Shown here one piece after another: positions 1,854-20,388 of a stretch of DNA of 52,002 nt (position 1 is the stretch's first letter; every line of letters starts with the position of its first letter). The stretch comes from Solirubrobacterales bacterium. Lineage in GTDB: Bacteria; Actinomycetota; Thermoleophilia; Solirubrobacterales; Solirubrobacteraceae. The stretch covers positions 1-52,002 of the forward strand of contig JAOPZW010000134.1 in the NCBI GenBank assembly GCA_025963905.1. Direction: 5' to 3'. The translations under genes and the position numbers were made by a program. The notes under the pieces were generated by a model that saw only the letters and a list, made by a program, of their open reading frames with translations, did no database searches and was not told where the DNA came from.

Positions 1854-4800
1854 ATGTGGATCGGTCGTGCAGGGCTTGTCGTCTGGACGAGGCCGGAGCG
1901 CCCAGTGGCGGTGGTGATGGCGCTGCTCGCGATGTTGACGTTCGCGTCTGTCGCGTCGGCCGGCGTGACGCGGCGTGGTGTTCCGCAGGCCGTGAATGGT
2001 CAGGGGTGCGGCAAGGTCTTGTGGAGTGAGCTTCCTGGCGCCGACTGGGGCTCGGCGCGTTGTGCGACGCGGCTGTTCTCGGGCTTGACGGCGGCTGACC
2101 ATGCTCGGCGGGTTGCGCGTCGTGCTGGGAAGCGGCTCACGCGTCGCGCGAGAACAAGTCATCGGCCAAGGGCGGTGCGTGGCCGCGTGGTTCGGGCGCC
2201 TCGGTTGAGGCGTGCGGCGGTTGGTCATCCGGCCGGTGTGGTGTTCACGGTTCGCCGGGGATCCGCGGGTCGCCGGCGACCGGCGCGCAGAGTGACGCGG
2301 CAGGGGGAGCACGAGCGCGGCGGGGCGGCCAGGCGTTCTGGCCGGCTTGTCGCGCGGGCGGCGTCGGTGTCTGCGTCGACTCAGCCGGCCCCTGGAGATC
2401 AGCTCGGTCCGGTCGGTGTCGCGACTGATCCTTCGACGGGCACCATGTTTATTGGGGACTGTGGGGGAAGTGGTTGTCGGGTGCTGCGGTACACGACCAC
2501 GGGGCTTGTGAGCGTCTATGCGGGTGGGGCGAGTCGCCTGTATTCCGGGGATGGAGGGCCTGCGGTTCAGGCGACGCTCACCCAAATCGGCAACCTGGCG
2601 GTTGACGGCGGGGGCAACCTGCTGATCGGAGGCAACGAGACCCTCAGGAAGGTGAACGCGTCGGCACCGCACGTCATCACCAGGATCGCCGGTAACACTC
2701 AGAACTGCAATTCGCCTTCCTTTAACGGAACATATGCGAGCGTGGGCGCTACCGCGACGGAGGTGTCGGTGTCGGTCCAAGGGGTTGCGGTCGATCCATT
2801 GTCGGGGGACTACTACGTCGGCGACGTGTGTACGGGCCGCATTCTGCGAATCGTGTCCGGTGTCATCGTGGCGATGTACGCCGGTCGTTCCAGTAGTCAG
2901 ATGACGTTCGATCCGGCGGGCAACCTGTATTTCGCCGATCATTACAGCCAGGTGCGTCGGCTTTCCCGGACGGGTGTGATGACGACGGTCGCTGGGACGG
3001 GTGTTGCGGGCTACAGCGGTGACGGGGGCCCCGCGACGCAGGCCCAGCTCAAACAGGTGGCCGGGTTGGCGGTCGATCCGCAGGGCAACGTCTACCTGAC
3101 TGATATCCAGACGTACACAGACGTCGTGCGCAAGGTCGACACGAATGGGATCATCACAACGATCGCCGGCGCCTACTGGAACGGGGCGTGGCTTTACGGC
3201 GATGGCGGGCCGGCGAGCGACGCGCACTTCTACCAGGCGCGGGACCTGGCGCTAGATGCGTGGGGTGATCTCATGATCATCGACAGCCAGAACCGCCGGG
3301 TGCGGATGATCATCGCGCCCGACGATGGCTCAAGCGTCGATGGCTCGAGCATCATCACCTCGTTCGCGAGCTCGGTCGGCCCCGGTGTCGAGGGCGAGGA
3401 CAATGCCGACAACCCCGCGGAGAACTGCGCTCAGGTCTGCGATGACGATTCGGTCAACACGGCGACTGGCCAGTACGCCGAGAGTCAGAGTGATATTTCG
3501 GTTCCGGGTCGCGGCGTGGCGCTTGACTTCACGCGCAGCTACGGGTCGCTGAGCGCGGGCGTCAACGGGCCTCTGGGCTACGGATGGACCAGTCCGTATG
3601 CGATGTCGTTGAGCTTCGACTCGATCTCCAACAATGTGATCATTCGCCAGGAGAACGGGTCGCAGCTGATCTTCTACCCCAACGGCAGCGGGGGCTTCAC
3701 CAGTCCGACGCGTGAGCTGGCCACGCTGGTGTCCAACGCTGATGGCAGCTACACGCTGACGCGCCGGGCGCGCTCGCAGTTCGTCTTTGACGCCAGCGGC
3801 CGGCTGATCAAGCAACTCGATCTCAATGGCTACGCGACGACGCTGGCCTATGATGGGTCCGGGCGCCTGTTGACGATCACCGACCCCGCGGGGCGCGCCC
3901 TCACACTGGCCTACGACGCCAGCAACCGCGTCACCTCGGTGGCCGACCAGACCGGCCGCCAGGTCACCTACGGGTATAGCGGCGCGGGAGACCTCACCAC
4001 GGTCACCGATGTCCGTGCTAGGCAATGGGCCTACGCCTATGACGCAAACCACCGGATGCTGACGCGAACGGACCCGAACGGCCATACCGACGTCACCAAC
4101 ACCTACGACGCCTCGGGTCGCGTGCTCACCCAGGCCGATGGCCTGGGGCGCAAGCGCGTGTTCGTCTATCAGACGGGGATGACCCAGACGACCAGCCCGG
4201 CCGGCAACGTCACCCGCGACTACTACTCGTCCGGGGCGCTGTGGAAGCAGGTCAAGGCGTCGGGCACCCCGCAGGCCGCCACCATCACCTACGCGTACGA
4301 CACCACGACCCTGGGCACGACGTCGACGACAGATCCCAATGGCCACGTGTCGACGGCGACGTTCGACTCCAAGGGCAACCAGCTGACGAGCACCGATCCG
4401 CTGGGGCACAAGACGTCGATGACCTACGACGCCCTCAACGACCAGACCTCAAAGACCGACCCCAACAACGTCAAGACGACCCTGACCTACGACACCCGCG
4501 GCAACCTCCTCACCCGACAGACGCCGCTGGTCGGCACGACCCAGGCCGAGACGTGGACCTACACCTACGGCGACGCAGCGCACCCCGGCGACGTCACCGC
4601 CGGCCAAGACCCGGTTGGCAAGGTCACGAACAACGTCTACGACGCGGCCGGAGATCTGACGAGCGTCACCAACGCGGCCGGTGACCAGACGACCTACGGC
4701 TATGACTCGATCGGTCAGCGCACCTCGATGGTCAGTCCGCGGGGCAATGCTGCCGGCGCGCCGCCCGCCGACTACACCACCAGCTACGCCTACGACGCGG

Positions 4801-6677
4801 CAGGGCACAAGACCGCCCAGACCGACCCGCTGGGCCATCAGACCAGCTGGACCTACGACGCGGCGGGGAACGTGGCCGCCACCACCGATCCCAACAACCA
4901 CACCACGAGCTACGCCTACGACGCCGCCGATCAGCAGACGCAGATCACGCGCCCGGACAACACTGTTCTCAAAAGCGACTACGACCCGGACGGCAACCTC
5001 AGCGCCCAGACCGACGCCGCCAACCACACCACCAGCTACACCTACGATCCGCTAAACCGCCAGGCCTCGGTCACCGACCCGCTGAACCGCACGACCAGCT
5101 ACGGCTACGACAAGGCGGGCAATCGCACCACCACGACCGATCCCAAGGGCCGAGTCACCACCAACGGCTACGACAACGCCAACCGCCTGACCTCCATCAC
5201 GTACTCCGACGGGGCAACCCCGGGCGTGACAGTGGGCTACGACGCCGATGATCAGCGCACCTCGATGGCCGACGGCTCGGGCCAGTCGAGCTGGACGTGG
5301 GACTCGTTGCACCGCGTCACCCAGCACGTCAACGGCAACGGCGTCACGGTCAGCTACAGCTACGACCTCGCCGGGCACAAGACCGCCATCACCTACCCCG
5401 GCAACCACACCGCCACCTACACGTACGACGACGCCGGCCGTATGGCAAGCCTCACGGACTGGCTCTCGCGCACGACGAACTTCAGCTTCAACCGCGACTC
5501 GCAGCCGGCGGCCACGACGTTCCCGACCACCACGGGCGACACCGACAGCTACACCTACAACCGAGCCGACCAGCAGACCGCGACCGACATGACCCAGGGA
5601 TCTAGCTCTCTCGCCGGCCTGAGCTACACCCGCGACAACGCCGGACTCCTCACCGCGCAAACCAACACCGGGCTCCCCGGCAACACCGCAGACAGCTACG
5701 CCTACACCCCGCTGGACCAGCTCTCGACGCATAACTCAGACACCTACGCCTACGACAACGCCGACAACCCCACCACGCTGGCCAGCGCAGGACCCAACAG
5801 CTTCGATGCCGCCAACCAGCTCACCGCGACACCGACCGCGAGCTTCACCTACGACGAGCTCGGCCAGCGGATCACCGCCACCCCGACCGGTGGCGCCGCC
5901 ACCTACTACAGCTATGACCAAGCCGGCCGACTGACGGGCGTGACGCCCCCAACCGGCTCTGCCACCACCTATGGGTACGACGGCCGCGGCACACGCATGA
6001 GCAACACCACCGGCACGACGACCACGCGTTACACCTGGGACGCGGTCGGCGCCCTGCCACTGCTCATCGGCGACGCCCAGACCAGCTACCTCTACGGACC
6101 CAACCAACTCCCCGTCGAGCAGATCGACCATGTCGGCACGCCGACCTACTATCACCATGACCAGCTGGGCAGCACCCGCATGCTCACTGACGCCAGCGGC
6201 AGCGCTACCGCAAGCTTCACCTTTGATCCATTCGGCCAGCGGGTGGGCCACACGGGAACACAGAACGCCGCGTTGGGCTACGCGGGGGAGTACACAAACC
6301 CCGAAACCGGGTTCCAGTATCTTCGTGCGCGCTACTATGACCCCACCACCGCCGTGTTCGTAACTCGCGATCCTCTGACGCGAGAGACACGGGAGCCGTA
6401 CGTATACGTGGACAGCAACCCCCTGAACGGCACTGACCCCACGGGCTTGAGAGGGGAGTGTGGAGTGAATGGTGCCGGCTGCGAGCATCCCCCTCGCGCG
6501 TACCCCGCTCGTAGGACGTGTCGCAACGTCGGCGCCCTACTCCCTAACAGTTGCCGTAGCCAAATTCACCTGGGACGCTGTCTCAATCCGGTCGGTGGCG
6601 GGCTCGTCGAGGTACCACTCAGGTGGTCGTTTATCGGTCTCTTGCTAGACTGTGCGTGGAACAACAGGCGACCCTAA
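1854..6677 (+). CDS. Secreted NHL-propeller / RHS (YD-repeat) polymorphic toxin
   Basis: The product is 1,607 aa. The ATG is preceded by a GAGGGGAG ribosome site, and the N-terminus is a signal peptide (hydrophobic VVMALLAMLTFASVASAG). Residues about 180-490 hold NHL-type propeller repeats (units such as GYSGDGGPATQAQL, VAGLAVDPQGNVYLTD). About 525-580 resembles DUF6531 (VNTATGQY, FTRSYGS). About 635-1,380 is a long run of YD repeats (YDAAG, TDPxG, TxYxYD). About 1,430-1,530 is the RHS core ending LRARYYDP, FVTRDPL, NPLNGTDPTGL. The core normally forms a cocoon that releases the variable C-terminal tip. Here the tip is only about 75 residues, rich in Cys, with a hydrophobic end, and I cannot assign a toxin family. 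It may be truncated. The stop overlaps the next start (TAATG), as expected for a toxin-immunity pair. Confidence 0.9.
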   Translation: MWIGRAGLVVWTRPERPVAVVMALLAMLTFASVASAGVTRRGVPQAVNGQGCGKVLWSELPGADWGSARCATRLFSGLTAADHARRVARRAGKRLTRRARTSHRPRAVRGRVVRAPRLRRAAVGHPAGVVFTVRRGSAGRRRPARRVTRQGEHERGGAARRSGRLVARAASVSASTQPAPGDQLGPVGVATDPSTGTMFIGDCGGSGCRVLRYTTTGLVSVYAGGASRLYSGDGGPAVQATLTQIGNLAVDGGGNLLIGGNETLRKVNASAPHVITRIAGNTQNCNSPSFNGTYASVGATATEVSVSVQGVAVDPLSGDYYVGDVCTGRILRIVSGVIVAMYAGRSSSQMTFDPAGNLYFADHYSQVRRLSRTGVMTTVAGTGVAGYSGDGGPATQAQLKQVAGLAVDPQGNVYLTDIQTYTDVVRKVDTNGIITTIAGAYWNGAWLYGDGGPASDAHFYQARDLALDAWGDLMIIDSQNRRVRMIIAPDDGSSVDGSSIITSFASSVGPGVEGEDNADNPAENCAQVCDDDSVNTATGQYAESQSDISVPGRGVALDFTRSYGSLSAGVNGPLGYGWTSPYAMSLSFDSISNNVIIRQENGSQLIFYPNGSGGFTSPTRELATLVSNADGSYTLTRRARSQFVFDASGRLIKQLDLNGYATTLAYDGSGRLLTITDPAGRALTLAYDASNRVTSVADQTGRQVTYGYSGAGDLTTVTDVRARQWAYAYDANHRMLTRTDPNGHTDVTNTYDASGRVLTQADGLGRKRVFVYQTGMTQTTSPAGNVTRDYYSSGALWKQVKASGTPQAATITYAYDTTTLGTTSTTDPNGHVSTATFDSKGNQLTSTDPLGHKTSMTYDALNDQTSKTDPNNVKTTLTYDTRGNLLTRQTPLVGTTQAETWTYTYGDAAHPGDVTAGQDPVGKVTNNVYDAAGDLTSVTNAAGDQTTYGYDSIGQRTSMVSPRGNAAGAPPADYTTSYAYDAAGHKTAQTDPLGHQTSWTYDAAGNVAATTDPNNHTTSYAYDAADQQTQITRPDNTVLKSDYDPDGNLSAQTDAANHTTSYTYDPLNRQASVTDPLNRTTSYGYDKAGNRTTTTDPKGRVTTNGYDNANRLTSITYSDGATPGVTVGYDADDQRTSMADGSGQSSWTWDSLHRVTQHVNGNGVTVSYSYDLAGHKTAITYPGNHTATYTYDDAGRMASLTDWLSRTTNFSFNRDSQPAATTFPTTTGDTDSYTYNRADQQTATDMTQGSSSLAGLSYTRDNAGLLTAQTNTGLPGNTADSYAYTPLDQLSTHNSDTYAYDNADNPTTLASAGPNSFDAANQLTATPTASFTYDELGQRITATPTGGAATYYSYDQAGRLTGVTPPTGSATTYGYDGRGTRMSNTTGTTTTRYTWDAVGALPLLIGDAQTSYLYGPNQLPVEQIDHVGTPTYYHHDQLGSTRMLTDASGSATASFTFDPFGQRVGHTGTQNAALGYAGEYTNPETGFQYLRARYYDPTTAVFVTRDPLTRETREPYVYVDSNPLNGTDPTGLRGECGVNGAGCEHPPRAYPARRTCRNVGALLPNSCRSQIHLGRCLNPVGGGLVEVPLRWSFIGLLLDCAWNNRRP

Positions 6678-7261: not shown

Positions 7262-7650
7262 GCGGGTGTTCCGCCCGTTGATCGAGGATCTGCTCGGCAT
7301 GGGGCTTGGGGAGATCGCGTGGGCGAACCTGGCGAAGTGCCGGGTCTCGATCGATCGTGGGGATGGGCAGCGCGCGGCCGAGGCACGGGTCACGCGGTTG
7401 TGCCAGAGCGAGTTCGTGCCGATGCGAGAGCTCGTCGAGGCGATCCGGCCGGCCGCAGTGGTGTGCTCGGTCCTGGCGGCCGGGGAGGGAGGGACGATCG
7501 TGTCGTCGTGGTCGGGGCCCACCTGGCGCCCGCTGGTCTTCACGTTCCACGGTCTCACCGGCCATGACCGCTCGAACCGCGACCCAGCTCGCCGCGCGAG
7601 CTCGGAGTGGGCGCCCGAGGCAGCACAGGCGATCAAGCGGGCTCAGCTCG
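7262..7650 (+). pseudogene. Truncated uracil-DNA-glycosylase-like fragment
   Basis: One frame shows clear coding character from VFRPLIEDLLGMGLGEIAW to WAPEAAQAIKRAQ, but no upstream start fits and the N-terminal half is missing or out of frame. The run AWANLAKCR, a later Cys, and IRPAAVV then HGLTGHDRSN resemble the second half of UDG-superfamily proteins: the TNxxKC element, then P-x-VV, then the terminal H-containing loop. The GEAPG-like first motif is not visible. The assignment is tentative. It lies just ahead of other nucleotide-related genes. Bases 7,076-7,261 hold only scrambled frames. Confidence 0.4.
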
Positions 7651-7806
7651 CGCCCCGCGCCGGCCGCTGGAGCCCAAACGTCAAAGGCTTCAGCCGACAG
7701 GAACCGCGCAACGACAGCCGCCCGTCCGTGCTGGGCGGGCGCCGGGCGTCTGGCCTCCGCGCGCAGGCCGACCCCTCAACCTGGGCGCTGCACTCACAGC
7801 TCGCCT

Positions 7807-7950
7807 TCATGCTCGGCGCTGCGGAGGATGCTGCGGCATCACGGCGCAGTCCACCTGGGTCCGTGCTCGAGCGTCCTTGAGGCTCGCACAGACCGTCGAC
7901 TTCCCGGCTCCGATCGGCCCGGCGACCGCGATCAGCGGTGGAGGGGGCAT
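7807..7950 (-). pseudogene. P-loop NTPase/kinase N-terminal fragment (47 aa)
   Basis: The minus strand encodes a 47-residue frame starting with ATG and carrying a textbook Walker A motif, PLIAVAGPIGAGKSTVCASL, within the first 30 residues. It then runs to a stop with no Walker B. This is the beginning of a nucleoside/nucleotide-kinase-like or other P-loop protein cut off early. It faces away from the thymidylate-synthase-like gene. Whether it is expressed is unknown. Confidence 0.4.
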
Positions 7951-8061
7951 CCCTGTATCGTCGCAAGACCCGCCGCCTGCGGATCAACTTCGCGCACCGA
8001 GCGGCGACGAGGCCTTGCGCGGCTGGCTATCGATCGCCCGACCTGGAAGCATGGCCGACCC

Positions 8062-9405
8062 ATGTTTGCCACATCGCGTCGCACTCCCTCCTGCGAGGAG
8101 GCCTGGACCCTGACGCTGCGCGAGCTCGTCGATCGAGGCGTGCCCCTCGCCGCTGGCCGTCCGTCGCGTGAGCTCCTCGGCTTCGACGTCGTTGTCGACG
8201 ATGTGCGTCAGCGCCTCGTTGCCAACAGCGCCCGCCCGCTACCGGTGGTCTCAGCGGTGGCGCGGTTCGTGTGGATGATGGCCGGCAACGACCGTCTGGC
8301 CGATATTCGCTTCTACGAACCGAACGTCGCCCGCTTCACCGACGACGGGCTGACCGTCCCTGGCTCCAACTACGGCTCGCGCCTACGCAGGTCCCCCGCT
8401 GGCACCGACCAGATCCGCGGCGCGATCGAGCGTCTGAAGGGCGCCGACGAGGAGATGGCGGGCCCCGATGGCGACCTGCGCCGCGCCGCGAATGTGATCT
8501 GGCGTCCAGAGGACGCTGTTCGTGCCTCCAAGGACATCCCGTGTGCGTTCGGCGCGTTCTACTTCCCCCGCGACGGCCGACTGGTCACGCAGCTTGTGAT
8601 GCGATCCAACAACGCGATGGCGTTGATGCCCTTCAACCTGTTCGAGTTCACGCTGCTCGCCGAGGTGATCGCGGCTGAGGTAGGCATCGAACCTGGCCCG
8701 TTCCGGCTCGACGCTATGTCGATGCACCTGTACACCGCCGACGACGTGCGCGCGACCCAGGTCCTCGACGCGGCCGGCGGCACGGCTGCTCACCCGATGC
8801 CGCCCATCCAGTCGGACTCGGGGCCGCTCGAGCAGATTCGACAGCTGGCTCAGGCCGAGGCGCAGATGCGTCACGAGTTGGCTGCGGTGGCCGCCGCCAG
8901 CGTCGACGAGCTGCGTGATCGCGGCGAGGGGCTGGACGACTACTGGCGGGCGTTCCTTGAGGTGTTGCTCGTCCACGCAGCCGCGACGGTAGGGCGGCTT
9001 GATACGGCACGGGAGCTTGCGGAGGTTCTGCCGCAATGGTGCCGGGCGGGTGCACTCGCCCATCTCGACCGTCTGGCGGAGAACCCGACGGTGGGGGAGG
9101 GCCGGCTCTTCGCCGTGCCCGGCCGTTCGTCACGCGCCAGCGAAGTTCGTGACGCACTGCAGGATGGCGGCGCACTCCGGGGCGAGCGGGAGCACCTGCA
9201 CGCGCTGCTCGACGAGATCGAGCGTCGCGGTGTCACCCTCACGCGCCACCAATCCCTTGAGGTTGAGCGCGTTCTGTTGGATCGGGTGTCCGCCGCGGCC
9301 CGATCAGACGGCGGAGGCGGCTCCGGCGACCGCTCTCTGTTCAGCCTCGAGGAGGTCGAGCGGGTCCTGCGCGAACTCGGGTTCGATTCGTCAGGGCCGC
9401 AGTGA
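8062..9405 (+). CDS. Thymidylate-synthase-like protein with C-terminal extension
   Basis: The product is 447 aa. Residues about 35-290 match the ThyA fold in order: SRELLGF; VWMMAGNDRLADIRFYEP; DDGLTVPGSNYGSRLR; DQIRGAIERL; the active-site loop KDIPCAF with Cys161; RLVTQLVMRSNNA; LMPFNLFEF; and SMHLY. In classical TS the RSxD element contacts dUMP phosphate (Arg, Ser) and the folate (Asp). Here it reads RSNN, so the Asp is replaced, and the His after the Cys is Ala. Residues about 290-447 are an added helical, charged region not found in housekeeping ThyA (about 265-310 aa). Conventional dTMP synthesis is therefore uncertain; modification of another pyrimidine nucleotide or a sensing role is possible. 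ATG at 8,062 is chosen because TS homology begins about 30 codons later. The stop overlaps the next gene's GTG. Confidence 0.8.
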   Translation: MFATSRRTPSCEEAWTLTLRELVDRGVPLAAGRPSRELLGFDVVVDDVRQRLVANSARPLPVVSAVARFVWMMAGNDRLADIRFYEPNVARFTDDGLTVPGSNYGSRLRRSPAGTDQIRGAIERLKGADEEMAGPDGDLRRAANVIWRPEDAVRASKDIPCAFGAFYFPRDGRLVTQLVMRSNNAMALMPFNLFEFTLLAEVIAAEVGIEPGPFRLDAMSMHLYTADDVRATQVLDAAGGTAAHPMPPIQSDSGPLEQIRQLAQAEAQMRHELAAVAAASVDELRDRGEGLDDYWRAFLEVLLVHAAATVGRLDTARELAEVLPQWCRAGALAHLDRLAENPTVGEGRLFAVPGRSSRASEVRDALQDGGALRGEREHLHALLDEIERRGVTLTRHQSLEVERVLLDRVSAAARSDGGGGSGDRSLFSLEEVERVLRELGFDSSGPQ

Positions 9406-10367
9406 CGCGCGCCTCGACCCGCGCCTGTTCGCCGCTCGAGGCCTTCGCGGCCGAACTCGGCTACCCCATGCCAGATGAGGCGATGCGGTGGGCATGCGGA
9501 GAGCTTCTGCGTAAGAGCGGGCAGGAGCATGGGCCCGTCGCCCTCCGTCCGCTGCTGGAGCGTTTGGGCGCCCGCCGCGAGGACCTTGCCTTGCCTACGC
9601 CGGGGCGGCTCGAGATCGACAGCGAGGGTTGGCGCATCTGCGTGCGGGCGGGCACGCCGTGGCGGCGGGCACGCTTTACGATCGCGCACGAGATCGGCCA
9701 CATCCTGCTCTACGAGACGTTGGCTGGACGGCCCGCACAGGTACGCGCGCTTCAGGCCCCCGAGCACTGGGCGGCCGTTGAGCGGCTGTGCAACCAGGCT
9801 GCCGCTGAGCTGCTTATGCCAGGCGGAGCGTTCGTGCGGAGCACACGGGTCACGGGGATCGCTCCGCTCGGACTTCGTGCACTCTACGACCGCTTCTTGG
9901 TGTCCTGGGAACCGCTCCTCGTACGAGTGACGGAGCTGTTCGCCGTTTCCTTGCTGACCTGGCGCCGGTACCGCCGCCACGGCGGCGAGCGAGAGACGCT
10001 CCGCCTAGCCCGCACGAGCCGCGACCGCGCGACGTGGCTTCCCGAGGGGATCACCGCGCGCTATGTCCGACCGGACGTGGTGACGGCCGCCAGCCACAGC
10101 GGCTACGCATGGGCTGAGCGTGCACTGCTCGACCTGGGCGAGCGGTGGCCGCGCCAGGCGTCGGCTGCCGCGGTCTCCCTGCCCGCCGCGCGAGCCGTCA
10201 CGGCAACGATGCCTCAGCCGCTGGACGGCTTCGTTGCTCCCGAGGAGCCGCCAGCGCCGTTCGAGGTTGCCTTGCTACTAGCCCCTCGCGTCGATGAGCC
10301 ATGGGGGGCGATCCTCAAACACAGCAGCGCACAGCATTCGCTCATCGACGGGGAGCGCGTACCCTGA
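9402..10367 (+). CDS. ImmA/IrrE-type zinc metallopeptidase
   Basis: The product is 321 aa, starting with GTG inside the previous stop (GTGA), so the two are translationally coupled. The zinc-peptidase signature FTIAHEIGHILLYE gives His96-Glu97-xx-His100. Glu136 in CNQAAAELLMP is the likely third ligand, the usual ImmA/IrrE pattern (COG2856). Proteins of this family cleave repressors or act as stress/phage-triggered proteases. No N-terminal Xre-type helix-turn-helix is obvious. The roughly 150 residues after the peptidase are unassigned. The operon setting suggests it controls, or is activated together with, the TS-like and NDT-like proteins. Confidence 0.85.
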   Translation: MTRASTRACSPLEAFAAELGYPMPDEAMRWACGELLRKSGQEHGPVALRPLLERLGARREDLALPTPGRLEIDSEGWRICVRAGTPWRRARFTIAHEIGHILLYETLAGRPAQVRALQAPEHWAAVERLCNQAAAELLMPGGAFVRSTRVTGIAPLGLRALYDRFLVSWEPLLVRVTELFAVSLLTWRRYRRHGGERETLRLARTSRDRATWLPEGITARYVRPDVVTAASHSGYAWAERALLDLGERWPRQASAAAVSLPAARAVTATMPQPLDGFVAPEEPPAPFEVALLLAPRVDEPWGAILKHSSAQHSLIDGERVP

Positions 10368-10372
10368 CCTTC

Positions 10373-10846
10373 GTGGACGATACGCACGCAAGGCCGATGG
10401 TCTACATCTCCGGTCCGTTGCAGGCCGCCGAGGACCTGCAGTCGGCGAGACGCCTCTACGAGCGGCTCGCGCGGATCAGCGACGATCGCGGTTTCCAGCC
10501 GTATCTGCCTCACCAGCGAACCGATCCCGACAAGCACCAAGACGTTAGCCCGGGTGAGGTCTTCCGGACGGATTTGGACGCCTTGCGCTCCGCCGACCTC
10601 ATCATCGCCGTCGTAGGCGCCCCTTCAAGCGGCGTAGGCGCTGAGCTGGCCCTCGCCTACATCGGACGGCAACCCGTCATCGCGCTGTGCCACGAAGACG
10701 AGCGCCTGTCTCGCTTCATCGAGGGCATGTTGGCGGATCACCGTAGCGCGCTGCTGCTGCGCTACCGCTCACAACAGCACCTCGAGCAGCAGCTGATTCG
10801 CTCACTCGAGCAGGTACGAAGCGAGCTCCCTCACCCCGTCGGCTGA
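10373..10846 (+). CDS. Nucleoside 2-deoxyribosyltransferase-like protein
   Basis: The product is 157 aa from GTG 10,373 (five bases after the previous stop); an ATG at 10,397 is the alternative. The family marks are YISGPL near the N-terminus, FRTDLDALRSADLIIAVV, and SSGVGAELALAY with Glu91 as the expected catalytic nucleophile, then RQPVIAL. NDT enzymes break or exchange the N-glycosidic bond of 2'-deoxynucleosides; related Rossmannoid folds serve as nucleotide-degrading effectors in immune systems. Here it is the third gene of a coupled operon with the TS-like protein and metallopeptidase, so it may act on the same pyrimidine deoxynucleotide pool. Length is normal for the family (about 140-170 aa). 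Confidence 0.8.
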   Translation: MDDTHARPMVYISGPLQAAEDLQSARRLYERLARISDDRGFQPYLPHQRTDPDKHQDVSPGEVFRTDLDALRSADLIIAVVGAPSSGVGAELALAYIGRQPVIALCHEDERLSRFIEGMLADHRSALLLRYRSQQHLEQQLIRSLEQVRSELPHPVG

Positions 10847-13099: not shown

Positions 13100-14893
13100 A
13101 TGCGCGCCACGTCCCCCAACGAGCCGCTTCGCACCGCGCTGCGCCGCCTCGGCGAGCACGGCGCCCGCGCCGAAAGCTTCCTCGACAGCGCGGCCATGCA
13201 CCTCAGAGGCGCCGGCTCCGACCCGGTGGGACCCAGCACGCCGCCTACGCGCTGCGCGAGGCGCTTATGGCGATCGTCGTGTGAGGCGGCGCGCCGCCGC
13301 GCGGGATGAAGGACGCGCCGCGGGACGTCGTGCGCCGCTTCGAGGCCGCCGGCGCCGACCCCGAGCAACTGGCCGACAGCATCCGCCGGCTCGCGGAGGT
13401 GCTGAAAGGGCCGGGCCCCAACGCCGAGCGCCTCGAGCGCGCCCTTAGCGATCTGGCCCGCCTCCCGCCGACCCGGGCGAGCGCCGACCTGATCGAGCGT
13501 TTCATCGCGGCGCTCGACACCGCCGCCACCTGGCTTCACGCGCGGACGCCCCCTCCGGCCGCCGACGTCGCGGCGCTCTACGACGAGACCACCACGGTCC
13601 TGCGAGACCTCTTCGGCCCGATGTCTGGGCGCCTGGCGGCGATGGACGACCTCGTCGGCCATCCCCAGCCGGGGCCGCAGCAGGTGGCGCTCCTGAAGCA
13701 GCGCCTCGGCGACGAACGTCACCTCGTCTACCTGTTCGAGAGCGTGCAGGGCCCAGGGTGGTTCCGCGCGCTGCGCGGCGACCCGCTCCACGGGCGGACT
13801 GCTCGTCCATGGCGCCCACACCCCGATCTGGCAGGTCAACGATCGCGGCGGCGCGGGGTTCGAGCTCGCCCCGTCCTCCCGGGCCGACGGCGGCATGCTC
13901 GACCCCAACCTCGTCCCCGCGAGCTACTCGGCGGCGGGCCCGCCCGCTACGTCCTGGGCGCACGCTACGCGACCGATGTCCTCGTCGCCCGCCCCGACGT
14001 GCCGTCAGACGGTAAGCACAGCCACTTGTGCTTCAGCGGACAGGGCGGCCGGCCCGAGCTGATCACCACCGCGCGCCGCGCCGCGTGGGCGAGTCTCGCG
14101 TTCGCGCCGCGCGTTCAGGCCGTCGGTGAGCCTGAACATCGAACCCCGCGAGCTCGAGGCTGGAGTCAGGCTCGTCGCTGTGCCGGGCATGGGGGTTCAC
14201 GTCCCGCAAGTGTTGCTGGCGGACACCATCGAGAACGGCGCCGGGTTCACGACCGCGCTTTCAGACGAGACTACGTTCGCGACGCTGCTGGCGGACACCG
14301 AGACGCTGATCAGCGGCACTTGGGAGGACCCGACGAGCACTCCTGCGGCTCGAGTTGCCCCGGCTGCCTGCGCGACTGGTCGAACACCCCCTACCACCCT
14401 CTGCTCGACTGGCGGCTGGCTGCCGATCTGCTCGACGTACTGCTGCACGGCGCGCCCAGACTCGAGCGGTGGGCGACCGTCCGGACCAGCGCCGTGCAGA
14501 AGGTCTGTAAGGACTTCGCCTGGTCGACCTGGAAGCGGGCGCCGACCGGCCGGTTCTCGACGCCAACGGCACCTTGATCTGCGTCGTGCATCCGCTCGAC
14601 GACATCGACGCAGGTATCCGCACCGGGATCAACACCCCGCATGGCGACGCTCTGCCGTTCGACTCGCTGAGGCGGAGACTCCTGGAAGGCCCTCCATGGC
14701 GGGCCCTTCGAGTTGAGAGGCCTCGATGCCGAGAATGTCCAACCCCCTCCTTTGGCCGAGACGTTGGCCGAAAACTTCGACGCGCGCGCGATTGTCTCGA
14801 CATACCATCTGGACCGCTGTCGGCTCACCGTTCATGGAGATCGACGAGTTCACCTATCGGGGACGTGCCGTGCTGGCGCGTCCCCGAACATAG
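13100..14893 (+). pseudogene. DUF1998 (DrmB / helicase-associated type) protein, multiply frameshifted
   Basis: Joining frames gives a recognisable protein. The N-terminal helical part is EPLRTALRRLGEHGARAESF and MKDAPRDVVRRFEAAGADP. A middle part holds VHGAHTPIWQVNDRGGAGFE and YVLGARYATDVLVARPDVP. A DUF1998-type end holds PRELEAGVRLV, LLADTIENGAGF, HSCGSSCPGCLRDWSNTPYH (Cys cluster) and PLLDWRLAADLLDVLLHG. The tail holds VVHPLDDIDAGI and MEIDEFTYRGRAVLA, ending at TAG 14,891-14,893. DUF1998 proteins include DISARM DrmB and Mrf-type helicase partners. At least five frame changes are needed, so as written it cannot be translated. It ends six bases before the GHKL gene, so it was probably the first gene of that operon. 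Confidence 0.65.
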
Positions 14894-14899
14894 GCACCC

Positions 14900-16099
14900 T
14901 TGATCCCCCTCGAACGGGGGGAGCCGTCCGACCACGCGGTCCGTTACCCTCCGACCGTCTCTACGTCGAACCCCGAACCTCCTACCGTTCCGGGCGCTGG
15001 CCACGATCCTGGCTTTTTCGACCTGCACCGGGTCGAGGCGCTTGTCGCGCGTGCACGCGATGACAACGTCTTGGACGTGTCGACGGTCGGCCATGATCGC
15101 TACCGCCACGTCGAGCTGCGTTGGCTTGCCGTGCTCGCATGGTGGTTGCTGTCCACCGAGGTCGACCTATCGGGATGGACGCTGAAGGTTCCGGGGCGAA
15201 ACAGCCCCGCACACCTACCGCTCGCACGTTCCGGGCTGCTCACTGCTGCGCAGGTCCGTGCGGTTGAGACCGTCGATCCCGCCGGTAACCCGGCGCCGCT
15301 CTCGTGGCAGGGTCGCCAGCCGCGGCTTCCCGGCGCCAATTGGGCTGTCCTGGACGAGCTGCTCGGCGAAGGCCGGCTGCGGATCATCCCCGATCTCGCG
15401 GATCCGCGGAGGTCCATTCGCCCGCGGGACGACGACGACTACCGGTTCCCATGGCTGACCAACCTGGGACTGAACTCCGCCGCCATCGACAGTCACGACT
15501 ACCAACGCTTCCTCGCCGACGCCGACCTCGTCCTGACCGAGTTGATCGACAACGTCCACCGTTGGAGCCGGGCACGAAGCGCGCTGGCCGTTGTGTCCAC
15601 AACCCGTGGCTCGACGACCCGTGGAAGTTGGAACCGCCTGCACGTCATCGTCGCCGATGCCGGCGCCGGGATCCCCGCCGCGCTGCGCGACGACATTGCG
15701 GCGCTCAGCGCCGTGCACGAGGCCTCCCAGCACCCCGGGCCGCTGGCCTCATTGACGGACGCCGACCTCGTCGAGCACCTCATGCGGTACGCCTTCGGCG
15801 ACCGTCACGTCCCCAAGCACAACGGGCAGGGGCTCAACGTCGCGCAGGTCCGTGCCGGCCAATGGGTCGGCGCGATCGACGTCGTCACTGTCGACGTCGC
15901 TGGGACACCGCTCCGCAAAAGCTCGCACGGCGTCAACCCGGCCGTGTTCGAGGGCGACGACGCGATCGAGCTCCCCGAAGCACGCGGCACGCTCATCCAT
16001 CTCACGCTCCAGGCCACGAGCCGCCGCGACGACGCCGCCCGCTACGAGCAGCTCGAGCTGCCGGGTAGCGGCCTCGCTCTGGCGCTACCGAGCCTCTGA
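14900..16099 (+). CDS. GHKL-type ATPase (histidine-kinase-like ATP-binding protein)
   Basis: The product is about 399 aa. The ATP-binding boxes lie in the C-terminal half. The N-box is VLTELIDNVHRWS (Glu214, Asn218), G1 is VADAGAGIP (Asp253), and the lid/G2 is KHNGQGLNVAQ (306-316). No phospho-accepting His domain, receiver or membrane span is present, so it is not an ordinary sensor kinase; GHKL ATPases of the MORC/Hsp90/MutL kind act as nucleotide-gated clamps. Residues 1-150 are unassigned. No ATG or GTG lies upstream of the conserved region, so the TTG at 14,900 is the best start. It precedes the PRTase-like gene by seven bases, which suggests one complex or pathway. Confidence 0.75.
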   Translation: MIPLERGEPSDHAVRYPPTVSTSNPEPPTVPGAGHDPGFFDLHRVEALVARARDDNVLDVSTVGHDRYRHVELRWLAVLAWWLLSTEVDLSGWTLKVPGRNSPAHLPLARSGLLTAAQVRAVETVDPAGNPAPLSWQGRQPRLPGANWAVLDELLGEGRLRIIPDLADPRRSIRPRDDDDYRFPWLTNLGLNSAAIDSHDYQRFLADADLVLTELIDNVHRWSRARSALAVVSTTRGSTTRGSWNRLHVIVADAGAGIPAALRDDIAALSAVHEASQHPGPLASLTDADLVEHLMRYAFGDRHVPKHNGQGLNVAQVRAGQWVGAIDVVTVDVAGTPLRKSSHGVNPAVFEGDDAIELPEARGTLIHLTLQATSRRDDAARYEQLELPGSGLALALPSL

Positions 16100-16106
16100 C
16101 TCCACG

Positions 16107-18644
16107 GTGCACGCCGGGACGCGTAGTGGCGAGGGTTACGCGCGCCTGACGGCCCGGTCGGTCGACGTGCTCGCGCCGCCGCAGGAGGGCGGGCTGCTGT
16201 TTGTCGACATGGCGCTCGGCGCCAGGGACACGTTCGAGCGCGTGCGCGACGCGTGGCGCTCCATCCCGCCTAGCGTCGTCGGCATGTGCTCGCGAATGGT
16301 CTTGCGCTCCCCGGTGGTGCGCTTCGACGGGAACATTGCCGACATCGGTCCGACGGACGATCGCCGCGTGCTGCTGCGACCGTCGGGCGATGACTGGCCG
16401 AACGACGCCAACGCGCTGGCGGATCGTGTCGTTGAGGTCATGCGCGAGAACCGCCAAGCGCCGCGGCCGGTCCACGCCTTCGAGCTGCCCATCGACGGCC
16501 CCGCGGCACTCTCCGACGACCTGGCGCCCGAGATCCTCGCCCGTTGTCGTGCCGTTGAGCTGGAGGCGCTCTTGCGCCGCACGAACGCGATCTGGGAGCC
16601 GACGAGTTACCACTACCGGCTGCCATCGGGCGAGCACACAGACTCCTTCATCCGCATCGCCGACGTCTTCAACGACCGGCGCGCCAGCGCGGCCCTTGCG
16701 AGCTGGCTGCGCGGCTTCACCACCGACTCGACGGTCGCCGTCGTCGACACGGGGACGCTCGTGCCTCTCATCGACCAGCTGGCAATCCTGCTCGAACGCG
16801 CGGCCGAGCAGCTGCCACTCTCGCCCGGCTTGGCCGGCGTGGAAACGATGGACCGCTACCCGAGGAGCCGCTTCGAGTACCTGCGTCGTTTCCGCGAGAT
16901 TTCCGAGGTCGAGATCCTGGCGGTGCTGTCGGTGAGTTCCTCCGGCAAGACCTACGACATGCTCGCGCACTCCCTGAGCGAGACGACGGGCGGACGTTGG
17001 CGCGCCGAGTGCCTGGTGAGCCGGAACGCCACGGACCAGGCCGACGCCGTGCCGCCCGTCGACGCGACGGAACGCCAGAATGCGTGGCTCGCGGTCGCCG
17101 GAGGCGGGACGAATGGCGGCGGCGACTGCGACCTGTGTCGGGACAGCGAGCGGGCGCGCGTCGTGCGGATCGACCCGCGCACGTTCAGCGCCATGGTCCT
17201 TCCCGAGCCCCGGCACGAGATGCCGGACATCGTCTCGGCCGCGCGCAACGCCTCCCTGTTCGGTGCCTACGACAAGCGGTTCGCCGGCGCGCCGGCGATC
17301 CTTCTCGCTCCCACCGAGACGTCGCGTGTGCGGGCTCAGCCGCTACGCCGTGGCGAGCAGCGCGAGCGCGTGCGGTTCGAGCCACTCACGCTGCTCGCCC
17401 AGGACGGTGTGGCCGACCGCGTCGAGAAGCGCCTCGCCGAACTGGCCGCACTGCCCCAGCGAGATCCCGCACGAGAGACCGTGGCGGCGGCGCTTCAGAG
17501 TGTCCGCGCGGTCAGGCCCACGGTCGTGATGTGCGACCACGAAGAGGTGAAGACGCTCGCCGAGGCCATTCGCTTGGAGCCGGTCAAGGGCGGGGAGCGT
17601 CGCACTATGGAGGAGGCCACCGCCCTGGCCGAGGAGCGGTTCCTCCAGGCGGCCACGGCCGTGTGCTCGACAATCGAGCGGCTCGTCGTCGTCGAGCGCG
17701 ACCTCAGCGCTCACGACCTCGCAGCGCGTTTGGGCGCCGACACCTCCTTCGCGCTGCTGGTGGCGGGGCTCCAGACCGGCGTCACGCTCCAGCACTTGAT
17801 GGTCGAGATCCAAGACGCCGCGCAGGCCGAACCCCGCATCTGCGCGCTCGTCTTGCACGCTCATCCGCACGACAGCGCCTCATGGCGCTCCGTCCGCAAC
17901 ACGTTCGGTGGCGGTCAGAAATCGGCACTCTTGGCCCTTTGGCTGACATACCTCCCCGCGCGGTCGCCGTTCGGCGAGGAGCACCAGTTGCTGATGTCCG
18001 TGCAGGATGCCTGGCTGGACGAGACGCGGTTGGGCGCCAGGGCAGCCTGGGAGCAGCGAATGGCGTGGACACGGCCAGACCGTCCTGAGACAGAAGCCTC
18101 CCCGGTTGTCCCCAGCCCGCTGTGGTCGCCGGTGTCGATGAAGCTGAGACGGACCTCGCGCTACGGCGACCTCGATGACCGTCGGGTCGTCGCCGCAATG
18201 GGGTCGGCGTTGAGCCAGAGCATCGACCGCCACGATCGCGACGGCGCTCCCGAGTGGGTACAGGTCGACCTCCCGAACGCGTTCCGCTCGTACTTTGATG
18301 CGCTGCTGCATGTGTCGCTACTCCGGTGGGTCGCACCATCGCGCGCATGGTGGGGTTCGCCCAATGAGTGCGTGAGCCTGATCGACGAGCTCGCCGGGCG
18401 CTTCTCCCGCAGCGTGGAGGACTGGCGATTGCTCCTGGCGGAACTGCTGATGGCGGCCGCGTTGGGCAAGGTGCCGGAGGAAGGCGTCAACGTGCTGCTC
18501 TCCTACGCGCAGACGATGCTCACAGCCCAGCCAACGCCCCACGACCCCGACGCCGACTACCCGCTGGCCTTCGTTGAGCTCGGAGACGCCCTCGTCCGGC
18601 ACTTGCGGCTCGGGGATCCGACGCCCGCCGCCGGGAGCGGCTAG
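16107..18644 (+). CDS. Large protein with phosphoribosyltransferase-like segment
   Basis: The product is 845 aa from GTG 16,107, seven bases after the GHKL stop. Residues about 160-300 resemble an orotate-PRTase-type fold: SYHYRLPSGEHTDSFIRIAD (like the OPRTase SGxHSD element), STVAVVDTGTLVPLIDQL, and EILAVLSVSSSGKTYDML. A CDLC knuckle (Cys341, Cys344) follows. The remaining roughly 500 residues are soluble and helical, without a family I recognise. A classical PRPP loop (DD-TGGT type) is not evident, so catalysis is uncertain; the fold may bind a nucleotide instead. The frame is open and long, unlike the decayed gene upstream. A defence role with the GHKL partner is plausible but unproven. 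Confidence 0.55.
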   Translation: MHAGTRSGEGYARLTARSVDVLAPPQEGGLLFVDMALGARDTFERVRDAWRSIPPSVVGMCSRMVLRSPVVRFDGNIADIGPTDDRRVLLRPSGDDWPNDANALADRVVEVMRENRQAPRPVHAFELPIDGPAALSDDLAPEILARCRAVELEALLRRTNAIWEPTSYHYRLPSGEHTDSFIRIADVFNDRRASAALASWLRGFTTDSTVAVVDTGTLVPLIDQLAILLERAAEQLPLSPGLAGVETMDRYPRSRFEYLRRFREISEVEILAVLSVSSSGKTYDMLAHSLSETTGGRWRAECLVSRNATDQADAVPPVDATERQNAWLAVAGGGTNGGGDCDLCRDSERARVVRIDPRTFSAMVLPEPRHEMPDIVSAARNASLFGAYDKRFAGAPAILLAPTETSRVRAQPLRRGEQRERVRFEPLTLLAQDGVADRVEKRLAELAALPQRDPARETVAAALQSVRAVRPTVVMCDHEEVKTLAEAIRLEPVKGGERRTMEEATALAEERFLQAATAVCSTIERLVVVERDLSAHDLAARLGADTSFALLVAGLQTGVTLQHLMVEIQDAAQAEPRICALVLHAHPHDSASWRSVRNTFGGGQKSALLALWLTYLPARSPFGEEHQLLMSVQDAWLDETRLGARAAWEQRMAWTRPDRPETEASPVVPSPLWSPVSMKLRRTSRYGDLDDRRVVAAMGSALSQSIDRHDRDGAPEWVQVDLPNAFRSYFDALLHVSLLRWVAPSRAWWGSPNECVSLIDELAGRFSRSVEDWRLLLAELLMAAALGKVPEEGVNVLLSYAQTMLTAQPTPHDPDADYPLAFVELGDALVRHLRLGDPTPAAGSG

Positions 18645-18814: not shown

Positions 18815-19327
18815 CTACCACGTAGGACGCCGCGGGAGCCTGCGGTGAGATGGGCCGTCTTCACGCGTGAACGAGCCCGGCAAGAGACCGTGCCGCCGAT
18901 GTCCGCGGGTGCGGCGGGGCGCTACCGCCCGCCGCGACGCGCCTGCTCGCGACCTCGTCAGGGGGACTCGAGCCCGAACTCCGTGCCCGAGGCGCTGCCG
19001 CTCGGCGCGAGGCGGCCGTCTCGGCGATGAACTGGGTCTGCCGCCAGGCCGCCGGCACGGGCCGGTGCGCGTGCCGGGATGCGGCCGTCCGACGCGCGCG
19101 CGAGGCCGCGGGCGCGAGCGCCCGTCGACGCCGGCCGAGCGTGCGCCCTTGTTGGTCTTGACCCTGTTCCACGCCACAACGAGGAACGCCGGGTCATAGA
19201 CGAGGTTGTAGAGGTCATCAAACCGGCGGCCGGGATCCCCGGCCGCCCACCGGTGCAGCTTGGTCTGCATCGCGAGTACCCGCCGCTCGGCCTCATCAAG
19301 GCCGGGCCACGAAGCGCCGGTATTCAC
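18815..19327 (-). pseudogene. Group II intron reverse transcriptase/maturase, N-terminal fragment
   Basis: From GTG 19,327 the product starts with ALDER-like helices typical of LtrA-type maturases (ERRVLAMQTKLHRWA, DLYNLVYDPAFLVVAWNRV, NKGARSAGVDG). Homology stops after about 70 residues at 19,117; the rest of the frame is Arg/Pro-rich nonsense. None of the catalytic RT blocks (for example YADD) is present, so it is inactive. Bases 18,645-18,814 contain nothing I can support. Confidence 0.7.
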
Positions 19328-19800
19328 CAGCGGCCTCCCCGGTCAGCATTCTCGCTGCGAACCTGCTGGACCCCTTCGCCATGTGGCCGGCTCTCCCGGC
19401 CCCGGACTACTACGGGTCCTCCGTCCCACCCCGGCGACATCAGCCGACGATGGACCTTCCCGCCACCCGGGCAGCTGGACGCTGCCGGGCGGTGAGGGGC
19501 CACCGGGATGGTTCCCACGTTCACCTGGAACCGCTTGACGGGTGAGGCGCCCAGCTTTGCCCCTGCAGCCTCGCCACGACTACGCCGCAGACCTTCACCG
19601 TGGCCTCCCGGCCGACGACATCAACCAGCCCGGGAGTTCTCCGCGCCCAAAGGCCCGGATGCGCGCTGCTGCCCAACCCAGATCTGCCAGATTCGAGCTG
19701 GTGGGTCTCTCTTGAGGAGCGTTCGACCACTGGTTTCTCACGTACACCTTCCCGTCTTGCTTGCCGGGCCCAGACCATCTGGCAGTGCTGATCCGTCCCG
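18815..19800 (-). mobile_element. Group II intron remnant
   Basis: The minus strand from about 19,800 reads like the 5' RNA domains of a bacterial group II intron: GTACGTGAGAAACCAGTGG, GGTTCCAGGTGAACGTGGGA, GGGGTGGGACGGAGGACCCG, and GCCGGCCACATGGCGAAGGG. The start of its maturase gene follows. The 3' half (most of the RT, domains V/VI) is missing. Its 5' side abuts an IS66 fragment, so the intron probably entered that element. Confidence 0.65.
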
Positions 19801-19843
19801 TCGTTGTCGGGGCTGCTTGCCACCCTCCCGCCCATCTCGACGC

Positions 19844-20280
19844 TCAGGCTGCCCCCAGCTTGCACCGGCACGCTGCGACAGGCCGACCGCGGTGTCCTTT
19901 CACCACCGCACGGTTCACAGACGCCTCGTGGCGCTCGATCTCCCAGGCCCAGAACAGCTCGCCGCAGACTCGCAGGCCGGCTTGGCCCATCTGGTGCTCG
20001 ATCCCGGCGCCCTCGGCGTGGAACGCGAAGTCGCGCTGCAGGTGCGACCAGCAGACCTGTCGTCGCCTGACCGGCAGATGGCCGTAGGCCCACCAGCGAT
20101 CCGACGTCACGATCGCCTGGCTGTCGGCGAGCAGGTCCTTGGCGCGGTCTTCGTGGCGGTCGGGCGCCACCTGGAGGATGGCGTGGCGGTCGGTGAAGAT
20201 GCCCCACAACGCGCGCTGGTCGCCGCGCACGCGCCAGCCCGTCTCGTCGATGAGCGAGACGCCGTAGGCGCGGCGCGGCG
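19844..20280 (-). pseudogene. IS66-type transposase fragment
   Basis: The minus frame reads YGVSLIDETGWRVRGDQRAL, then LWGIFTDRHAILQVAPDRHE, LADSQAIVTSDRWWAYGHL, RRQVCWSHLQRDF and GELFWAWEIERHEASV. This is the core of IS66-family transposases (DETGxR, TDRxxAY, CWAHxxRxF). Both ends are missing: a cut anti-sigma gene upstream and the group II intron downstream. Confidence 0.7.
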
Positions 20281-20284
20281 CGGT

Positions 20285-20388
20285 GCGGCGGTGCCGAGCA
20301 CCCGCGCCGCGAGCGGCGCCGGGATGTCCAGCCCATCGCGGTCGACGGGATCGGCGCGACGCAGATCGTCGAGCAGGTCGGGTGTCAT
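20285..20388 (-). pseudogene. Anti-sigma-like gene, cut after about 33 codons
   Basis: The ATG overlaps the sigma-factor stop (ATGA). The product begins MTPDLLDDLRRADPVDRDGL and IPAPLAARVLG, then runs into IS66 sequence. A short gene coupled to an ECF sigma gene in this way is usually its membrane-bound regulator. Only the N-terminal stub survives, before any membrane span. Confidence 0.45.

Follow-up and report, generated by a model that had tools for sequence, protein, structure and literature searches.

The DNA analyzed here (the window) is a stretch of 52,002 nucleotides from a Solirubrobacterales bacterium (assembly GCA_025963905.1, contig JAOPZW010000134.1). It carries two adjacent genes, termed A and B, that encode a putative GHKL ATPase and a large protein with an orotate phosphoribosyltransferase-like (OPRTase-like) domain. 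A preliminary description made from the sequence alone had treated them as one unit of two open frames. Both frames are indeed intact and lie on the + strand, with 7 bases between the stop codon of A and the start codon of B, and GC content at the three codon positions marks both as strongly coding (0.75/0.50/0.82 in A; 0.72/0.51/0.87 in B); this pattern is lost upstream of about position 14850. The start codons of A and B were inferred, and B may start slightly later. The TTG codon of A is preceded by only a weak purine stretch, and a hairpin at this start folds no better than shuffled sequences.

Direct searches with the window proteins against Pfam, NCBIfam, PADLOC, and PDB gave almost no matches: B alone matched no Pfam or NCBIfam family, and full-length B matched nothing among plasmid, phage, and viral-contig proteins. 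Only the phosphoribosyltransferase (PRTase) segment of B, searched at a loose limit, reached relatives, namely two plasmid genes that are each the second gene of a two-gene unit. These units match PDC-M65A and PDC-M65B (E down to 1e-122), the two genes of the phage defence candidate PDC-M65 in PADLOC-DB 2.0. Follow-up searches from these units and from a joint alignment yielded 10 full plasmid loci, 31 genome loci, and one viral-contig locus, a set that includes near-duplicates (L016/L019/L023 and L026/L027). The relatives of B span Pseudomonadota, Bacteroidota, Acidobacteriota, Campylobacterota, and Melainabacteria, and all other proteins in the alignments match the respective PADLOC models (28/28 for A and 28/28 for B). 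Wherever a family locus leaves room for it (40 of 40 loci), gene A immediately precedes gene B on the same strand, in most cases with an overlap of 1–4 bases, and the pair is also present in the viral-contig locus, which is additional to these 40; in one locus (L008), B is split over two frames. Other gene families recur next to the pair in four loci at most; thyX alone looks like a third gene of the operon, and only in three rhizobial plasmids. The proposal that the two genes form one unit is thus supported by a conserved order, and the check on their joint conservation confirmed the pairing.

The window pair itself branches outside the sampled members of this family. Window B falls short of the PDC-M65B model, which matches it only in the region of the PSGEHTDSF motif, 23 residues long (E = 0.066), and the PDC-M65A model matches neither window A at E ≤ 10 nor anything else in its genome. 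A family profile that leaves out the window sequence nevertheless matches window B at E = 1e-13; window B scores 48 bits, shuffled sequences at most -1.7, and a profile alignment of window B with the family extends over 708 columns (E = 4e-21). These comparisons exclude chance and establish full-length homology of window B to the PDC-M65B proteins. A maximum-likelihood tree groups the 40 other family proteins in a single clade (support 99/96) and puts window B outside it, on an end branch so long (5.4 changes per column) that its exact placement is unsure. The window pair shares with PDC-M65 the gene order, adjacency, protein lengths, and GHKL residues of A, together with full-length homology, the OPRTase motif, the CxxC knuckle, and the conserved C-terminal motif in B; it differs in that window B is about 100 residues longer and that the stretch from N-box to G1 box in window A is shorter. 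Judged from sequence, it is a sister lineage of PDC-M65 rather than a filed member, and we call it PDC-M65-like because its proteins pass neither PADLOC model.

Searches elsewhere gave no second pair among several hundred sampled genomes of the source class and phylum, and no detectable copy in E. coli genomes (at the DNA level) or phage records. One lone relative of B was found in a genome of the same order as the source (G214; locus L046, 7317–9548, − strand). This 743-residue protein is more distant than window B, has no adjoining A partner, carries a CxxC motif after each domain, and retains an intact phosphoribosyl pyrophosphate (PRPP) loop, DDMIASGAT, in its second domain; it is apparently a two-module PRTase without a GHKL partner. 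Its locus looks antisense and the match was considered spurious, a view we dropped when it proved to be a real distant relative.

Structure prediction supports the claim that B contains an OPRTase-like segment. The model of a typical family member (L015) was good, with a predicted local distance difference test score (pLDDT) of 87 and a predicted template modeling score (pTM) of 0.76, and a Foldseek search with it placed OPRTases at probability 1.00 (best E 2.8e-5). A viral-structure search with the family model gave generic PRTase matches only. Descent of the SATTSG loop from a SIS (sugar isomerase) domain was also considered and was dropped, as Foldseek placed OPRTases far above isomerases. 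On these models, the B family has a PRTase fold of the OPRTase type, more securely for L015 than for window B. The family profile also retrieved a genuine PyrE encoded next to pyrF (L072, 1477–2073, − strand) that matches the OPRTase HP1257 at 2.4e-29. The alignment of domain 1 and its knuckle with this PyrE runs from SSGLHSDTYIQ to the C-terminal CPLCKKG, 157 columns in all; it scores 23.6 bits (P = 6e-9), against at most 2.3 in 300 shuffles. The preliminary description had listed the OPRTase-like segment and the CxxC knuckle of B as separate elements. Both are present, but because the alignment extends through CPLCKKG, they are, by sequence comparison, a single OPRTase-derived module. A PyrE of the L072 type is likely the kind of protein from which domain 1 descended.

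Compared with PyrE (HP1257, PDB 4paw; L072), the B module retains the fold, the SGxHS motif, and the order of elements, including the knuckle found as CPLC in L072, whereas the PRPP loop has changed. Where PyrE has VLIVDDVVTKGG, the family has ISATTSGG and the window LSVSSSGKT, such that the Asp-Asp pair of the loop is replaced by Ser-Ala or Ser-Val. This acidic pair is absent from both PRPP loops in 40 family proteins and in window B, and the stretch from strand 2 to loop 1, which holds the catalytic loop in PyrE, is shortened in the family. Since the acidic pair is missing, domain 1 is probably a nucleotide-binding pseudo-enzyme, and consumption of PRPP, which the preliminary description had suggested measuring, is probably the wrong readout for B. 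The module also differs from PyrE in its setting, a protein of 720–845 residues that adds a second domain of Rossmann type and a helical C-terminus. This second domain weakly resembles domain 1 (P = 3e-4 over 125 columns), and its direct comparison with PyrE was not significant; its PRTase origin is supported by LLLDDMIASGATM of the lone relative G214 at the position of loop 2.

Window A has all the residues expected of a GHKL ATPase: the Glu and Asn of the N-box, DxGxG in the G1 box, and GxGL in the G2 box. Its match to Pfam HATPase_c is sub-threshold (E = 0.0037; 18.1 bits, where the cut-off is 26.4), and it has no significant match to the PDC-M65A family. The assignment is therefore based on the motifs, the weak Pfam match, and the gene position. 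The protein had been described as lacking the phospho-transfer and membrane parts of kinases, and this holds: a Pfam search detected no HisKA/DHp domain, and the highest mean hydropathy over 19 residues is 1.01, which indicates no membrane segment.

Table 1. Features of the A-B gene pair and the adjoining remnant in the window.
Feature	Position	Strand	Description	Basis or conservation
Gene A	14900–16099	+	399 aa, TTG start; N-terminal part of ~210 residues, then ATPase domain	Sub-threshold HATPase_c match, codon pattern
GHKL N-box ELIDN	15539–15553	+	Glu214, Asn218	Glu and Asn in 39/39 family A proteins and window A
GHKL G1 box DAGAG	15656–15670	+	Asp253, Gly255, Gly257	Kept in 39/39 plus window A
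GHKL G2 box NGQGL	15821–15835	+	Gly309, Gly311, Leu312	38/39, 39/39, and 38/39, respectively, plus window A
Gene B	16107–18644	+	845 aa, GTG start; N-terminal alpha/beta part, OPRTase-like domain 1, CxxC knuckle, second Rossmann-type (PRTase-like) domain, conserved helical C-terminus	
OPRTase N-terminal motif	16605–16658	+	SYHYRLPSGEHTDSFIRI; corresponds to SSGLHSDTYIQ of genuine PyrE	Conserved across family
Domain-1 strand with conserved Asp	16734–16769	+	VAVVDTGTLVPL	Asp in 40/40 family rows and window, absent in G214
Degenerate PRPP loop 1	16914–16952	+	ILAVLSVSSSGKT; family form hhIS-A-[TS]-[TS]-S-G	No acidic pair in 40 family rows or window
CxxC knuckle	17127–17138	+	CDLC	In most family members and at C-terminus of L072 PyrE
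Degenerate PRPP-like loop 2	17751–17789	+	ALLVAGLQTGVTL	G214 has LLLDDMIASGATM at same place
C-terminal motif	18285–18329	+	RSYFDALLHVSLLRW; family form RFNDGVIQASLLRAA	Among the family's most conserved stretches
DruE (Druantia) remnant, not part of pair	14126–14311 and 14332–14520	+	Two frames, truncated upstream	PADLOC DruE models, E = 4e-15 and 1.4e-7 in own genome

Taken together, we favor (probability about 0.5) a reading of the window pair as a divergent PDC-M65-like system of two genes that probably acts against phages and combines a GHKL switch with a pseudo-OPRTase sensor. An anti-phage function is plausible from context, given the defence genes near relatives and the decayed DruE adjoining the window pair, which bears out earlier remarks on decay just upstream. 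Within 4.5 kb of the genome loci, the PADLOC families listed include HmaC, HEC-01A/B, PDC-S54, DpdF, PDC-M04A/B, DrmMI, UzuA, DUF499, a type IIG restriction-modification enzyme, and mad2, and Qat genes lie near the pair in L010. Mechanistically, A and B would form a complex in which ATP-dependent dimerization of A would act as the switch; the ATP-gated clamp role proposed earlier for A is a plausible hypothesis. The pseudo-OPRTase pocket of B may bind a nucleotide or ribose-5-phosphate ligand and B might thereby detect shifts of the nucleotide pool in phage-infected cells, with the changed state then stopping growth or phage replication. The output would probably come from B's conserved C-terminal helices or from a host target. 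A wider proposal, which we put forward tentatively, is that a dead OPRTase was taken with its CxxC knuckle from pyrimidine synthesis to sense nucleotide pools as a phage-defence switch gated by a stand-alone GHKL ATPase, and that the catalogued family is part of an older and more widespread architecture. If true, the bacterial immune repertoire would gain a nucleotide-sensing pseudo-enzyme under an ATP-driven GHKL switch.

Several observations weigh against the favored reading. The AlphaFold2 model of window B itself is poor (pLDDT 55, pTM 0.42), and the PRTases that head its Foldseek matches reach only E 0.04. PDC-M65 is itself unvalidated, in keeping with the status of PDC systems as guilt-by-embedding candidates that await validation (PMC12988326, PMC10855318). 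A control set of the same size, made up of open reading frames from remote regions of 16 of these genomes, also gave about six PADLOC names, with mad2, mad3, PDC-S02, RtcR, PD_DExK, and PsyrT among the families listed; in this comparison, which counts listed families (at most 25) and not proteins, the enrichment of defence neighbors near the pair is modest. The link to thyX, which encodes a flavin adenine dinucleotide-dependent thymidylate synthase and lies directly upstream of the pair in L005, L007, and L009, concerns three related plasmids only. Finally, comparison of window A with PDC-M65A by HMMER and hhalign gave 0.6 bits, equal to the best shuffle; the GHKL motif residues of the two line up in MAFFT alignments only, and the proteins agree in GHKL residues, length, and position only. 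Given this lack of detectable similarity, window A may be an independently recruited GHKL protein.

Of the other readings, we consider it unlikely that B is an active enzyme of unusual chemistry whose conserved pocket transfers or hydrolyses a ribosyl-phosphate compound, depleting or modifying nucleotides once A releases it. A nearly invariant set of His, Ser, Arg, Asn, Asp, and Cys residues in the family, beyond the needs of a scaffold, would fit such activity, as would the intact second-domain loop of G214 and the PRTase effectors known in retrons (PMC12548924), but the acidic pair has gone from both loops in the 40 family proteins and in window B, and the catalytic-loop stretch of PyrE is shortened. 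Similarly doubtful is that the pair, though carried on mobile elements, serves pyrimidine or deoxynucleotide supply as a housekeeping or stress-signalling unit and has no part in defence. The OPRTase ancestry of B, the joining of thyX to the pair in the rhizobial plasmids, the window gene 5.5 kb upstream that encodes a thymidylate synthase domain, and the many relatives on large plasmids without an obvious defence neighbor are consistent with that role; against it stand the patchy distribution within class and phylum, the defence neighbors in several loci, and the lack of a fixed metabolic neighbor.

We regard as least probable, and indeed very unlikely, that the window pair is a degenerating relic in which the sequence of B was free to diverge and an unrelated GHKL gene, A, lies upstream by chance. 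Its long end branch, the dissimilarity of window A to PDC-M65A, and the remains of mobile elements and decayed defence genes on both flanks would be expected of a relic, whereas open frames with strong codon-position bias, a complete set of GHKL catalytic residues, the retained main motifs of the B family, and family-like length, order, and spacing would not.

The pair had been called undescribed. Its counterparts are catalogued as PDC-M65, so this is not so at the level of databases, but no experimental or mechanistic description was found: a literature search returned no paper on PDC-M65, though supplementary files could hold one. PDC-M65 has so far been only a database name, and an OPRTase-derived pseudo-enzyme with a GHKL ATPase gives it a concrete structural hypothesis; the window pair in turn indicates that current detection models miss deep branches. 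Among known systems, Shedu VcSduA carries a GHKL domain at its N-terminus for which control of a nuclease effector has been proposed (PMC12137116), and it thus resembles the window pair in the use of a GHKL ATPase as a proposed effector gate in phage defence, but it is a single protein with a nuclease, whereas the window pair is a two-gene unit in which no nuclease domain was found. Type III retrons likewise place a phosphoribosyltransferase-like protein in a defence operon, but the PDC-M65-like family is without a reverse transcriptase or retron RNA and its partner is a GHKL ATPase. The sole reverse transcriptase-like fragment in the window (18815–19327, by eye) is a short reverse-strand remnant. 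It belongs to a region (18815–20336, − strand) in which two broken elements can be read by eye: a reverse transcriptase of the group II intron type, of which the start is present, and an IS66-type transposase in fragments. No Rfam match, to intron or retron RNA included, was obtained in the window.

Neighbors related to nucleotide metabolism recur at a few loci. Besides thyX, dgt lies beside the pair in L007, and together with the thymidylate-synthase-domain neighbor these genes hint at a nucleotide theme, but they are few. In the window, three overlapping genes (7306–10846, + strand) encode a 699-residue protein that has a thymidylate synthase domain at its centre (residues 310–479), an M78/IrrE-type peptidase-like protein resembling capP, and a nucleoside 2-deoxyribosyltransferase; this trio is possibly another nucleotide-based conflict operon. 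In the viral-contig locus (L050, 1222–9498, + strand), the A-B pair is followed, by eye, by a large predicted nucleoside triphosphatase and a SIR2-like protein. Farther upstream in the window (1854–6677, + strand), a 1607-residue RHS-repeat protein with NHL/teneurin-like repeats is encoded.

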